Origin: a virus
Virus record (IMG/VR): IMGVR_UViG_3300020129_000184
Coordinates: 1-44,119 of that record
Direction: 5' to 3' (one strand)
Length of the DNA stretch: 44,119 nt
How positions within the stretch are numbered: position 1 is the first letter of the stretch; every line of letters starts with the position of its first letter. The notes beneath the pieces are model-generated. The model was not told the DNA's origin and did no database searches. It saw only the letters and a list, made by a program, of their open reading frames with translations. Position numbers and translations under genes: made by a program. Shown in pieces: positions 32,168 through 37,888 of this stretch.

Positions 32168-32274
32168 TCTGGCTCCGGCGATTCTGGCGGCGGCGATTCC
32201 CGGCGCAGGCGATGTGGATGTCGGAACGGTGGCGCGGCGATTTTCTCTACCGATCAGGACGGGGGGACGTATGA
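32164..32274 (+). CDS. 36-residue Arg/Trp-rich peptide
   Basis: 36 residues from GTG 32164: starts MIWLRRFWRRRFPAQ, five Trp in all. The GTGA overlap upstream and ATGA overlap with the RecT-like gene downstream suggest it is translated as a coupling or leader peptide. No known function; amphipathic Trp/Arg composition could associate with membranes or nucleic acid. Confidence 0.45.
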   Translation: MIWLRRFWRRRFPAQAMWMSERWRGDFLYRSGRGDV

Positions 32275-33056
32275 ATCCAACGACACCCACGACCGACAAG
32301 CGCCTTGATGTCGTCGGGACCGAGGGCGGCAAGGCCACGGTGGAGACGACGACCGCGCTGGCCCCCGCCCGACCGGAGGACAAGGACAGAGCCAAGGTAC
32401 CGGTGCGGATGGGCGTCATGCCGACGAACGTCGAGGAAGGCTGGCGACTCTCGCGGATGCTGGCCGAATCGGAAATGGTCCCGAAGGCGTTCCGCAACAA
32501 ACCCTCCGACGTCCTCGCGGCGATGCAGCTCGGCGCGGAGGTGGGATTCGGTCCCATGCAATCGCTCGCCAGCATCGCGGTCGTGAACGGCCGCACGAGT
32601 ATCTGGGGCGACGGCCTGCTGGCGTTGATCGTCGCGTCGTCGCTCTATCAGGACCATGACGAATTTTTCGAAGTCGGCGGCCAGCGCCGGGACGGCCTGA
32701 CGCTCGACGACATGAAAGCCGACACGACCGCCGCCGTCTGCACGTTCACCCGCCGCAACAAACCGATCCCGGTCACACGGCGCTTCACGGTCGGACAGGC
32801 GAAAAAGGCGCTGCTCTGGGGCAAGGAAGGCCCGTGGACGACCTTTCCCGACAGAATGTTGCAGATGAGGGCGCGAGCGTTCGCCGCTCGTGACACGTTC
32901 CCCGATCTGCTGCGCGGCATCCACACCGCCGAGGAAGCACGCGATCTGCCGCCGGTCGTCGTCGATCAGCGCGAAGTCCGCCGGATCTCCGAGAGCCGCG
33001 CCGACTTCATCGACCGCGAACCGGACACCCGTCACGACGAACCTCCCGCAGCGTAA
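32271..33056 (+). CDS. RecT-family single-strand annealing protein
   Basis: 261 residues from ATG 32271. The RecT pattern is visible: VLAAMQLGAEVGFGPMQSLA then SIAVVNGRTSIWGDGLLALI (about 80-125), and TFPDRMLQMRARAFAARDTF near 193-212. RecT proteins coat single-stranded DNA, form helical or ring filaments and anneal complementary strands, working with an exonuclease such as the PD-(D/E)XK protein two genes on. It lies about 2.1 kb upstream of the pentamer array in the same orientation. Confidence 0.88.
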   Translation: MNPTTPTTDKRLDVVGTEGGKATVETTTALAPARPEDKDRAKVPVRMGVMPTNVEEGWRLSRMLAESEMVPKAFRNKPSDVLAAMQLGAEVGFGPMQSLASIAVVNGRTSIWGDGLLALIVASSLYQDHDEFFEVGGQRRDGLTLDDMKADTTAAVCTFTRRNKPIPVTRRFTVGQAKKALLWGKEGPWTTFPDRMLQMRARAFAARDTFPDLLRGIHTAEEARDLPPVVVDQREVRRISESRADFIDREPDTRHDEPPAA

Positions 33057-33308: not shown

Positions 33309-34075
33309 CGATCCCGGCACTCGTCCTCGAGGCCAGCCGATTCGATCCGGCGTTGTTCACCTTCGATCCGACCGGCCACGTCTACAAGTACGACGGCCAG
33401 CCGATCCGCTCGGTCACGCAGATCCTGAAAAAGGTCGGCCTGATTCCGCCCTTCGAAGATTTCGTCCCGCCGTACGTGCTGGGTCCGGCGCTCGCACGGG
33501 GGACAGCGGTCCACCGCGCCATTCACTATTGGAACGAGCGCGATTTGAACCTGCAGGAATTCGACGCGACCTTCCCAGAGTGGGCGGGGTATCTGCGCTC
33601 GTGGATCCGGCTGCTCGATTCGGGACGGCTGCAGACGTTGGCCTGCGAGCAGCGCGTGATCTCGCTGGCTCCGCGCTTCGCCGGCACACTGGATTGGATC
33701 GGCACGTTCGACAACCACGCCGCCATCCTCGACTATGCAACCGGCGATCCAGAGGACGTCTGCAAACATTTGCAGCTGGCCGCGTACGTGCTGGCCGCTC
33801 GGGCTACCGCTCTGGTCAGTGCGGGATCCGGATTGCTCAAAACATTTTTCGAGCGGCACAACCATATTCGCCGTTTCGCAGTAAGGTTGTCCCGGTCGGG
33901 TGGTCTGCCGCAGCTGACCGCCTATGATGATCCCCGCGACTTCAGCAAGTTCCTGCTGATCGCGGAGTCCGTCAACGTCGTGGATATCGAGCGCCCGAAA
34001 TCAATCACGTGGAACTGGAGAGCTGATCACACAACCACCGAGGAGGAGCAGTCATGGCAAAGCGTGCACCCGTAG
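33305..34075 (+). CDS. PD-(D/E)XK nuclease-like protein with Lys replaced by Ala
   Basis: 256 residues from ATG 33305. Matches the RecB/Cas4-like nuclease fold: GTAVHRAIHYW (H70), E115 in ACEQRV, GTLDWIG (D130), then ILDYATG where the usual D-x-K motif reads D143-Y-A145, and QLAAY (157-161). The invariant Lys of this motif is Ala (codon GCA). Either the enzyme is inactive, or another residue substitutes (K154 in CKHLQL is nearby). By location it should be the exonuclease partner of the RecT-like protein. Confidence 0.78.
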   Translation: MTIPALVLEASRFDPALFTFDPTGHVYKYDGQPIRSVTQILKKVGLIPPFEDFVPPYVLGPALARGTAVHRAIHYWNERDLNLQEFDATFPEWAGYLRSWIRLLDSGRLQTLACEQRVISLAPRFAGTLDWIGTFDNHAAILDYATGDPEDVCKHLQLAAYVLAARATALVSAGSGLLKTFFERHNHIRRFAVRLSRSGGLPQLTAYDDPRDFSKFLLIAESVNVVDIERPKSITWNWRADHTTTEEEQSWQSVHP

Positions 34076-34791
34076 TCGAACCCGCAACACCCGCCCCGCC
34101 GGTCGAATCCAAATCTCCCGCGCAGCTCTGGACGTACTACGATGTCGTCTGGGATTTTCTCACCAGCGTGTGCGGCAGTACTCCCGCCGATCCGGAAATC
34201 GTCGAAGCCTGGTTGAAGGCCCGACAGCCTCGCGTGAAACCCGCAGGCGCGTTGTCCATCGAAGAGATCAACGAGGAAGTCCTTGCCAGCATCGAGCGCG
34301 GCGAAGGCGAACCCGATCAGTCGTACAGCCTGCTCGTGTTCCAACACGATCCGCAGGGCCACTGTGTGATGCGGTACTCCACGATTCGAGCGCACATCAA
34401 GGATTGCGCTCGCGTCCTGTCCGCCCAGTTCATCGGGCGCGTGCAGGGCGAACGCGCCTTTAGTACCAGAGTGATCAACGGCGTGTACCTCGATCCGAAA
34501 CGGTACTGGATTCCGCTGGAGCGGCCGGACGGCACGATGATCACGAAGCCGGACGGCGCTCGGGACAAAGCGGTGCACGTGCGCGGTCCTCGTGGGGAAA
34601 CGCTGAACGCGTTGAAACGGATCGAATTCATCGAGCCGCCCTGCCGGATGCGATTCACCCTGCAGGTGCTCGGCCGATCAGTGTCGGAGACGGATCTCGA
34701 TCACGTGTTCTCGTACGGGAGTGTTCACGGCTATGCCGGCGAGCGCAGCGACGGGGAGGGCCGCTATGAATTCCAGATCACGCGGCGCTGA
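34054..34791 (+). CDS. Phage protein reminiscent of RAMP/Cas7 proteins
   Basis: 245 residues from ATG 34054, with an excellent GAGGAGGAG ribosome site. The shape GSTPADPEIVEAWL, a HDPQG turn, STIRAHIKDCARVLS, VRGPRG and a C-terminal GSVHGYAGERSDGEGRYEF recalls a widespread uncharacterised phage family whose Gly-rich end (GxG...GxGRFE) resembles RAMP/Cas7 RNA-binding proteins. This likeness is from memory of the pattern and needs a structure search. It sits directly upstream of a small helical gene and the 2-kb pentamer array. Confidence 0.5.
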   Translation: MAKRAPVVEPATPAPPVESKSPAQLWTYYDVVWDFLTSVCGSTPADPEIVEAWLKARQPRVKPAGALSIEEINEEVLASIERGEGEPDQSYSLLVFQHDPQGHCVMRYSTIRAHIKDCARVLSAQFIGRVQGERAFSTRVINGVYLDPKRYWIPLERPDGTMITKPDGARDKAVHVRGPRGETLNALKRIEFIEPPCRMRFTLQVLGRSVSETDLDHVFSYGSVHGYAGERSDGEGRYEFQITRR

Positions 34792-34807: not shown

Positions 34808-35125
34808 ATGCTCCGCGAGAACGCCCCGCAGTTGCGGACGGCGGAAAAATTGATCGAGAAGCACGAGCAGATCGCGGACGCACTGGAGCACGGATCGATC
34901 ACGCCGAAAACGGCGGAGCAGCTCAATCAATCCCTGAAAGGGATCGTCGGGATCGAGCGGCTCGGCATGTCGTACCTCAAGCTGGCGCTGGCCTTCGGGA
35001 AAAAAGCGCCGGTCCCGCGCACGCCGATCCTGCGGTCGATGATCGGTCTGCCGGTGGAACTGTCGCCGCACGATGGCGAACAGGTTCGGGCGCTGTTGCC
35101 GGACGGCGGCGACAGCAAGAAATAG
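34808..35125 (+). CDS. Small helical hypothetical protein before the array
   Basis: 105 residues from ATG 34808, with GAGGCGG upstream. RTAEKLIEKHEQIADALEHG and TAEQLNQSLKGIVGIERLGM suggest a helical bundle, followed by a Pro-rich segment. The array described next begins within about 25 bp of its stop codon, so the two may be co-transcribed. No recognised family. Confidence 0.6.
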   Translation: MLRENAPQLRTAEKLIEKHEQIADALEHGSITPKTAEQLNQSLKGIVGIERLGMSYLKLALAFGKKAPVPRTPILRSMIGLPVELSPHDGEQVRALLPDGGDSKK

Positions 35126-35150: not shown

Positions 35151-37168
35151 GGTGGCGAGCGGTCAGCAGCGGGGTGACGTCGAGTAGTGCCGCGCACCGG
35201 GGTGGTCAGTCGTCGAGTGGTGTTCGGAGGCGTGGCGATGATCGTCGCGAGGCGCGCTGTCGTCGAGTGGCGTACTCGTTCTGGACCGTAGTGCGGTGGA
35301 CCGGGGATGGGATGCCGTCGAGGTGCGTGGCGAGCGGTGGTGCCCTGACGTGTTGCGGCGGCGAGTAGTGGCGTGGCGTGGTTCGTGGTGAGGCGTCGTG
35401 GTTGCGGCGTCGAGATGCGGAACGAAGCGCGCTGAACAGGCGCGGCGTGGAGTGCTGTCGAGGCGCGTAACGATGGGCGGCGTGCGGTGGTGCCGTGTCG
35501 TCGAGTTGCGTGGAGTAGTGGTCCCGTTCTGCCGTCGAGACGCGAACTGCAACGGGGTGACCGGGGGCGTACTGCCGTCGAGTTGTGCAGTGACTCGTTG
35601 TGACTGGTCCTGAAGTGTCGTCGAGTTGCGTAGTGTAAGGGCCGGTCGTGTCGTCGAGGCTTGTGGCGTGGCGTAGCGAAGCGAAGTGGTGTCGAGGGCT
35701 GCGGGGGCCTGTTGCGCCTTGTGCTGCTAGGGCCTGAGGTGCCGTCGAGAGCTGTGGAGTCGCGTAGGGTTTTGTTCGGGCTTGTCGTGGCGTCGAGCCG
35801 CGTTGTGCCGTGGCGTGAGGTGAGGCGGTGCGTTGCGTTTCGTCGCGACGTGATCGGACGTCGAGCAGCGAGCAGGGGTGATGTGAGCGGGGGACGCCGT
35901 GCGGGGTGGTGCCGTCGAGTTGTGAGTGGGCGTGTCGTGGGGCGGGGTGATGCGGCGTGTCGTCGAGTTGTGACTCGTCACGAATCGTCGTGCCGTCGTG
36001 GTGAGGTGCCGTCGAGTCTCGTGGCGTAGCGTAGTGGCTTTGTCGTGCCGTGCAGGGCCGTCGAGAATCGAATCGATCCGGAGCGAGTCGTATCGGAGTC
36101 GAGGTGCGCTCTGTTTCGCGGGGGCGTGTAGCGATCTGCCGCCGAGGGGCGATCAGGGATGCCAAGGGATGCGGGGCCGTGGAGTCGAGTAGTGACGCGA
36201 TGGCGTGGCGTGGTGAAGCGTCGTCGAGAAGCGAACGGGATGGGTGCGCCGGGGATTGTTTCGATGTGCCGTCGAGCCGTGGAGCGAGTCGCGCTGTTGT
36301 CAGCTGGCGTGTTCCGTCGTGACGTCGAGCATCGAGATGACTGGGCGTGTCGTGAAGTCGAGTTGTGTAGGGCGGTGTCGCGAAGTGATGGGATAAGCGG
36401 TGGCTCGTTGTGTCGTCGAGAAGTGGCCGGGACTGCGGGGATCTGAAGTCGAGAGGTGGAGCGGCCTTGTGGTGGCGTGGTTTGCCCTGCTGTCGAGATG
36501 CGTAGCGGGGCGACGTGGTGCGAGGGGCCTTGTCGTCGAGAAGTGTAGTGACTGGGTGCGAGGTGCCGTGTTGTCGAGTCTCGTCGTGAGGGGAGTTGTC
36601 GTGTCGCGGTGCGACCGAGGGACGATCAGCAGCGGTCAGGCGTGATCGGTTTCGTCGTGCAGTCGAGGGGCGATATTCATTGCGCTGAGAAGATTCGGCG
36701 TGCGGTGACGTCGAGGGACGAGCAGTTGTGGTGAGGTTCGGTGTGCAGTCGAGTAGCGTCGTGGCGTCGTCTGGCGTGGCGTGCAGTCGAGAGGTGACCG
36801 GGGACGTCCGGACCTGACGTCGAGGGGCGGCGTGGTTTGCCCTGTCATGACATGACGCGGTTTGACGTCGAGTAGTGGAGCGTGGCGAATAGGATCGTTC
36901 GGCGGTGCGGTGACGTCGAGGCGTGCGGTGAAGGGCAGTGCCGGGATTCGTCGCGTGGTGTCGTGTCGTCGAGGGGCGAGCAGTGTCAGGACGTGACGTC
37001 GAGTAGTGATGCGGCGCGATGTGTTCTGCCGTGGCCGTCGAGAATCGAATCGATATGCCGGGACTCGTTGCGGGGTGTCGTGTCGTCGAGAAGCGATGTG
37101 ACGTGGCGTGAGGCGCGACGGCGTGGCGTCGAGCAGCGTGGAGCAGTGATCTGTCGTGTAGTGAAGTG
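35151..37168 (+). repeat. Pentamer-phased GTCGAG array (novel element)
   Basis: About 2 kb without a convincing gene, running from just after the 34808-35125 stop to the start of the next gene. GTCGAG occurs 42 times on the plus strand, from 35179 to 37128, with degenerate copies at 35360 (GGCGAG) and 36141 (GCCGAG); I saw none in the opposite orientation. Of 43 spacings, 31 are 5n+3 (33, 38, 43, 48, 53, 58 or 68), nine are 5n+4, three are 5n, none 5n+1 or 5n+2. Inside each unit the bases fall into blocks of five that almost always end in G, often as NNGTG or NNGCG: TCGAG-(NNNNG)n-NNG. The plus strand is G/T-rich (35881-35940: G 32, T 13, C 10, A 5). Single-base insertions explain the 5n+4 cases. 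Function unknown. Confidence 0.95.
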
Positions 37169-37174
37169 GACTCT

Positions 37175-37888
37175 ATGGATCTCAGTCCTGAAGTAGCGCG
37201 GACGGCCGGAAGCGAGCTGGCGGAAATCTCCATCTCGCTCGTCCGGCAGCTCGACACCGACCTGACGATCCACGACGTCATGCAGCTGGAGCACGCCGTT
37301 GAACGCCGCCAGCAGCTCGGCACGCAGATCGCTCGTGTCGAAGCGTTTTTCGAGGAACCGATCAAGGCCGCCCACACCACACATAAGCTGCTCTGCGACC
37401 GCCGCCGGGAAATCATCACGCCGTTGCAGGTATTCGATCAGCGGCTCGTCGCCGCGATCAGCGAATTTAAATCAGCGGCCGACCGCGAGCGCGAAGCACG
37501 CGAACGCGAGCAGGCCGATCAACAACGCCGCGACGAGCAGGCGCGTGCCGCTGCCGAAGCCGCCGCGCTGGAATCCTCCGGCGAGCCAATCCTGGCCGAG
37601 GCCGTGATCGCGGAATCAATTGCGCGGCCGATGCCGGTCGTCGCGTTGCCGGACGTCACGCGGGTCAGCGGTCTGCAGTTCCGGCGGTACTTCCGCTGGC
37701 GCGTGGCCGGGGGACCGAACGAGATCAAGCTGACGCCGCCGCTCGTGCTCGCACGGGCGCTCCAGCTGGTGCCGCGAGAATTCCTCTGCCTCGACGAGAA
37801 AAAGCTCACGAAGTACGCGGCGGCGATGCAAGGCTCCGCGAAGGTTGCGGGGATCGAATTCTATTTCGTGGATACTCCGGTTCGATGA
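37175..37888 (+). CDS. Coiled-coil protein after the array
   Basis: 237 residues from ATG 37175 (GTG 37166 also possible). Two helical regions: VMQLEHAVERRQQLGTQIAR and a long charged coiled-coil near 95-135 rich in Arg/Glu/Ala, then a C-terminal alpha/beta domain (about 160-237, FRRYFRWRVAGG...). Such proteins occur in phage recombination/replication clusters, but no family is certain. No clear Shine-Dalgarno precedes it because the pentamer array runs up to its start. Confidence 0.7.
   Translation: MDLSPEVARTAGSELAEISISLVRQLDTDLTIHDVMQLEHAVERRQQLGTQIARVEAFFEEPIKAAHTTHKLLCDRRREIITPLQVFDQRLVAAISEFKSAADREREAREREQADQQRRDEQARAAAEAAALESSGEPILAEAVIAESIARPMPVVALPDVTRVSGLQFRRYFRWRVAGGPNEIKLTPPLVLARALQLVPREFLCLDEKKLTKYAAAMQGSAKVAGIEFYFVDTPVR

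Follow-up and report, generated by a model that had tools for sequence, protein, structure and literature searches.

A 5-nt-phased array beside a predicted RAMP-fold gene in a soil phage: a probable VIPR-like RNA guide system

The protein TRAP (MtrB) reads a triplet every 5 nucleotides (nt) on RNA. A second system, the Viral Interference Programmable Repeat (VIPR), is made of the protein Vipr and its vrRNA (bioRxiv 2026.04.26.720920 / PMC13142463), and that paper describes it as a phage RAMP protein, with an RRM core and a G-loop in its fold, working with RNAs of tandem pentamers in which GGY is fixed and NN is variable (PMC13142463). According to the same paper, the NN pairs recognise DNA with one base skipped per repeat, and the system is used between phages, where it acts to switch off genes of rivals (PMC13142463). 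For its type II, a vrRNA is described as having 9-16 repeats and then a structured 3' tail, other array architectures being reported as well; seven types are distinguished, with "GGY/NN or a related consensus" and staggered arrays, and RAMPs are stated to share little sequence (PMC13142463). Here we analyse the complete IMG/VR virus record IMGVR_UViG_3300020129_000184, a stretch of 44,119 bases that we call the window, in which an array of phased pentamers (35154..37168, + strand) has directly upstream of it a gene whose product is predicted to adopt a RAMP fold. We consider it very probable that this region is a VIPR-like RNA-guided system, in which the RAMP-fold protein and the guide array likely repress genes of competing phages. 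Our computations show the grammar of the array, its linkage to the gene, the predicted fold and, in two relatives, exact target matches with a one-base skip.

The pentamer array and the adjacent c0 gene

The array, which we propose to be a vrRNA guide array, is formed by 47 anchor-delimited units. Each consists of the anchor TCGAG, then (NNSYG)n with n about 5-12, then NCG, and an 8-nt NCGTCGAG junction separates the units. An earlier note, written by a model from the letters of the window, had reported 42 GTCGAG words, a 5-nt phase, a G closing nearly every pentamer and units of 5n+3 nt. The 42 exact anchors are present as counted, spanning 35179-37128 (6.5 GTCGAG words are expected from shuffling), and five variants (four GGCGAG and one GCCGAG) complete the set. 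For the phase, we counted the start positions with seven successive G at 5-nt steps and used the refutation test that the note itself had named: the array holds 169 such starts, against a mean of 6.7 and a maximum of 26 in 500 dinucleotide-preserving shuffles, and no such signal was found elsewhere in the 44,119-base window. With the phase fixed by the anchor alone, the 28 canonical units yield 203 pentamers, which carry G at position 5 in 98.5% of cases, C or T at position 4 in 82% and G at position 3 in 61%, positions 1-2 being nearly free. The closing G is thus borne out, but the note's four freely varying positions are not, since position 4 is also constrained. Its spacing rule stands in part: 28 of the 41 spacings between exact anchors equal 3 mod 5 (31 of 46 when the five variants are included), but the 13 exceptions, eight of which equal 4 mod 5, are not the "few" that it had mentioned. 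The lengths are also broader than the seven that it had listed, taking in 34, 39, 44, 49, 50, 54 and 55, plus a few fused units of 86-92.

The same note had held that ordinary coding does not account for the region. We agree, as the anchor spacings spread over all three reading frames (17/14/10) and the array recurs beside the same gene in relatives. The contrary explanation, a repeat protein encoded by the minus strand or a degenerate, decayed pentamer microsatellite, can draw on the autocorrelation at lag 5 that is present in the array region and on a 737-amino-acid frame that is open on the - strand (35206..37419). This frame stays open because stop codons can hardly arise, whatever the frame, in the reverse grammar (C R S N N); it is a by-product of the array grammar and not a gene, and a minus-strand protein of 737 amino acids was accordingly rejected. 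In addition, a search for tandem repeats and long direct repeats over the array region found none, neutral decay would not hold G at 98.5% beside free neighbours, and linkage to a RAMP gene, described below, was found at 53 of 61 loci. A coding or decayed origin is in our judgement extremely unlikely. As the reverse-complement grammar is nearly free of stops, automatic gene prediction may place long spurious proteins on arrays of this kind.

The gene directly upstream of the array (34054..34791, +) encodes a vipr-like protein of 245 amino acids and belongs to a family that we call c0, which no family covered in searches of Pfam, PHROG and NCBIfam. Its AlphaFold model, with a predicted local distance difference test score (pLDDT) of 78.5, has a RAMP (Cas7/Csm3) fold: the best match in the PDB, searched with Foldseek, is the CRISPR RAMP subunit 8z4j_J (E=4.7e-7), and the 109 matches at E<=0.001 include type VII Cas7, Csm3 and Cas7-11. 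In BFVD, the model matches a "Cas system-associated RAMP superfamily protein" (1.4e-10). The family has an invariant glycine-rich C-terminal motif, HGxxxERxxxxG. The earlier note had called for a reader that steps 5 nt along a nucleic acid with fixed and free positions; the predicted fold agrees with such a reader, because RAMPs are the RNA-binding backbone subunits of CRISPR effectors.

Pattern scans and an analysis of neighbouring genes revealed that pentamer arrays are widespread in IMG/VR and fall into at least two grammar classes; pentapeptide-type coding repeats, which produce lag-5 signals in many contigs, were excluded by their 15-nt identity. Class A, to which the window belongs, has the form NN-S-Y-G with 5n+3 junctions and G[TCG]CGAG anchors, and class B has the form G-K-Y-NN with 5n+4 junctions and the anchor GCGG|TCNAG. 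Class A arrays found by DNA pattern adjoin a c0 gene wherever the contig covers that stretch. For the reverse test, the c0 protein profile was the only query put to IMG/VR, and arrays were then looked for: 53 of the 61 loci recovered had an adjacent array on the strand of the gene, 50 of these arrays lying downstream and 3 upstream, and a contig end truncates a few of the eight loci that lacked one. In a set of 80 terminase relatives of the window, arrays occurred only in contigs carrying c0, many of these contigs being fragments. Between phages, guide content turns over while the frame persists, and array pairs compared for single substitutions proved either identical or unalignable. Class B arrays adjoin a second RAMP family, c1, whose AlphaFold model also matches CRISPR RAMPs and whose profile matches the solved SUSP1 Vipr protein (36pp_D, E=2.3e-8); this last match led us to the VIPR paper.

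Guide matches and candidate targets

In every array, guides were cut out and read from the two bases that follow each invariant G; they were then compared with a database of 3.9 Mb of phage DNA in which the arrays were masked, trying 0-3 skipped bases. The c0-linked guides number about 400. Two class A guides, from L209 and L303, match targets at 20/20, and only with a one-base skip; with skips of 0, 2 and 3, no guide match reached 20/20 in the same 3.9 Mb, and order-shuffled versions of the two guides (10 each) reached at most 17/20. The target of the L209 guide is the vipr-like gene of L203, L251, L341, L346, L350 and the window, where the site (34726..34755, +; 20/20 with a 1-nt skip) covers the codons HGYAGERSDG of the glycine-rich loop. 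The target of the L303 guide is a Peptidase_S78 prohead protease gene in L322. The skipped base is codon position 3 in both matches, one of them on the sense strand and the other antisense. L303 holds one guide in two copies, which are distinguished only by frame positions 3-4 and by one whole missing pentamer, and guides of L203 and L367 have seven NN pairs in common while their frame letters differ. The exact match of the L209 guide to the vipr genes of other phages, the window's included, is direct evidence, at the level of sequence, for a putative guide warfare between such systems.

These matches bear on two other explanations of the array. In TRAP-like regulation, a ring protein would read one triplet per 5-nt step, with the two free bases as mere spacers, and the array has indeed the same step and the same triplet-plus-two layout; the earlier note had drawn this analogy, which is superficial only, as the free bases spell exact DNA targets in relatives. 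Moreover, a content that varies between phages under a constant frame, a linked protein that models as a RAMP and not as a TRAP ring, and units that carry anchors and vary in length all speak against such regulation, which we hold to be very improbable. Alternatively, the array RNA could be an assembly scaffold or decoy for the RAMP protein, for example in anti-CRISPR or packaging, with no target pairing. RAMPs do bind RNA at a fixed step and the window's own guides lack an established target, but the two in-frame 20/20 matches at a one-base skip, with none at other skips or in shuffles, make a scaffold or decoy very improbable.

Three more candidates were rejected. A loading site for RecT filaments was considered, RecT being encoded upstream (32214-33056), but arrays elsewhere recur beside a RAMP gene; a Rho/rut site on the minus strand, which is rich in C, and a TpG flexible-step DNA both leave the anchors, the RAMP linkage and the target matches unexplained.

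The longest guide of the window is a unit of 12 dinucleotides at 35792..35859 (+), CC TT CC GC AG AG GT TT TT TC AC AT. Its best fit lies in a gene of related phages for a fusion of ParB-N and DNA methyltransferase, at 20/24 and, in one contig, 21/24; the fit is antisense and has the skip base on the wobble position. This gene was not found in the window with tblastn. A relaxed scan of IMG/VR with the same guide returned only the ParB-methyltransferase family, one of three contigs reaching 21/24, a result that is not independent since the scan was designed on that very match. We regard the gene as a suggestive lead only to the target of this guide. Compared with the window's own genome, its guides matched no better than shuffles. 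No target is thus established for the window's own guides, the best fit, 20-21 of 24, being suggestive.

By analogy with the VIPR paper, we propose that the array would be transcribed on the + strand and processed into TCGAG-(NNSYG)n-NCG units, each anchor-delimited unit serving as one guide. Along this RNA, each pentamer would be held by one RAMP subunit at its fixed S-Y-G bases, and its two variable bases would pair with DNA as NN-skip-NN-skip, so that one target base would be skipped per repeat, usually the codon wobble base. Genes of rival phages bound in this way, vipr genes among them, would likely be repressed.

Neighbouring genes and further arrays

The window belongs to a tailed phage from soil and encodes integrase, terminase, portal, capsid, tape measure, RecT, exonuclease and methyltransferases; none of the genes around the array was identified as cas. 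Between the vipr-like gene and the array lies a small conserved open reading frame of 105 amino acids (34808..35125, +), a candidate accessory (vap-like) gene. A Pfam search of this frame gave no domain match, and about 20 distinct contigs of the window-type subgroup have, by tblastn, a homologue in that position with 40-72% identity. The gene at 37166-37888 was considered as a member of the system and dropped, as its homologues occur only in L248 and L360 and lie upstream in L360.

Beyond the loci described above, class B arrays stand beside c1/Vipr genes at L181:2362-3136 and L163:10509-11018 and in L175, L156, L198, L134, L150, L176 and L201; one of the c1-linked arrays sits in a 376-kb contig, and a conserved gene of about 170 amino acids, c2, is found near many class B arrays. 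A 2.5-kb class B array at L138:8324-10845 (-) adjoins a PD-(D/E)XK nuclease gene, with no RAMP gene on the examined stretch. YNNGG arrays are present in isolated phages (L397 2110-2290, L398 3131-3270, and L399 3265-3300 and 4028-4155), these isolates being Quico (M. smegmatis), ODay (Gordonia) and Cy-LDV1 (Cylindrospermopsis), where they adjoin a hypothetical protein with homology to the c1/Vipr family (phrog_4652). Quico grows on a laboratory strain.

The phage of L355, to which L151 and L356-L358 also belong, has four separate arrays of class A (L355:5082-17479), of which one stands next to an ERCC4-domain protein. At L247:33-1213, pentamer phasing is seen on both strands over about 1.2 kb with inverted content (GTCCAG / GACTGG), a two-strand pattern that differs from the other, one-sided arrays. 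In a genome collection of 84,980 bacterial and archaeal species, the only c0 locus was found in a Dehalococcoidia metagenome-assembled genome (L259:10682-11312), with a c0 homologue of 31% identity and an array downstream.

Comparison with known systems

Several results weigh against a VIPR-like system. A sequence link between c0 and c1 received an hhalign probability of 0.9%, and a search of the PDB with the c0 profile did not find Vipr. The frame of the window is NN-S-Y-G, with the invariant G just before NN, whereas the published one is NN-G-G-Y, and its units hold 5-12 pentamers compared with the 9-16 published. RNA folding of the array gave z-scores of 2.0 and -0.3 and no structured 3' tail was found; a search of Rfam with the array returned no match, and an exact 24-base scan of IMG/VR with the longest guide of the window returned nothing. 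With all guides pooled, the excess of matches over shuffles was small (0.09, standard error 0.045). A small excess is what a small database with few true targets would give, and the target case therefore rests on the exact long matches.

Taking these results together with the linkage, the predicted fold and the exact matches, the c0 system most likely belongs to the VIPR family in the wide sense, and it looks like a divergent relative of VIPR that differs from the published type. The earlier note had known of no described phage element with this grammar; VIPR vrRNAs are such an element, as they share the architecture and have a related but different fixed triplet (PMC13142463). The window variant may already be among the seven types that the paper mentions with a related consensus (PMC13142463). 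We put forward more tentatively, as a proposal that is plausible but on balance doubtful, that c0 represents a type outside those seven. Such a type would have another code register (SYG, with the invariant G before the free pair) and long head-to-tail arrays in which the NCGTCGAG junction would act as processing signal or cap, and related soil phages would direct it at each other's vipr and capsid genes.

Our analysis, made independently and on raw sequence, indicates that gapped RNA guides of the VIPR kind are common among uncultivated phages, and that they also occur with a different fixed frame and with a RAMP that is very distant. The family that may be ancestral to CRISPR backbones is thereby widened. 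The S-Y-G frame supplies a second code for engineering, and large natural guide sets, such as the 47 units of the window, could show which phages fight which.

With TRAP, the window has in common a triplet plus two bases in a step of 5 nt. TRAP differs in its triplet, (G/U)AG versus S-Y-G, in its protein fold, and in that it works without base pairing, its spacers carrying no information; a combination of (G/U)AG triplets and a TRAP-fold protein was not found here, where the linked protein models as a RAMP. Class 1 CRISPR-Cas, built on a Cas7/Csm3 backbone and crRNA, is similar in its RAMP-fold RNA-binding protein, its guide RNAs and its skipping of bases at a fixed step. However, the system of the window has neither CRISPR repeats nor cas genes (direct repeats of about 24-48 bp with spacers and cas genes were not found at the array), and its 5-nt frame lies within the RNA, whereas CRISPR has 6-nt kinks on a contiguous spacer. 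From VIPR, the window differs in a vipr-like protein that has no sequence-detectable link to the class B/SUSP1 family, and in one long head-to-tail array of 47 short units, joined by the 8-nt junction, with no structured tail seen. It resembles VIPR in a phage-encoded single protein, of predicted RAMP fold, that stands beside a non-coding pentamer array, and in three fixed and two free bases per pentamer; VIPR also has a small accessory open reading frame, for which the frame of 105 amino acids is a candidate in the window. As in VIPR, and as seen in class A relatives, the free bases agree with DNA when one base, on the codon wobble, is skipped, and the apparent targets are other phages, their vipr genes included.
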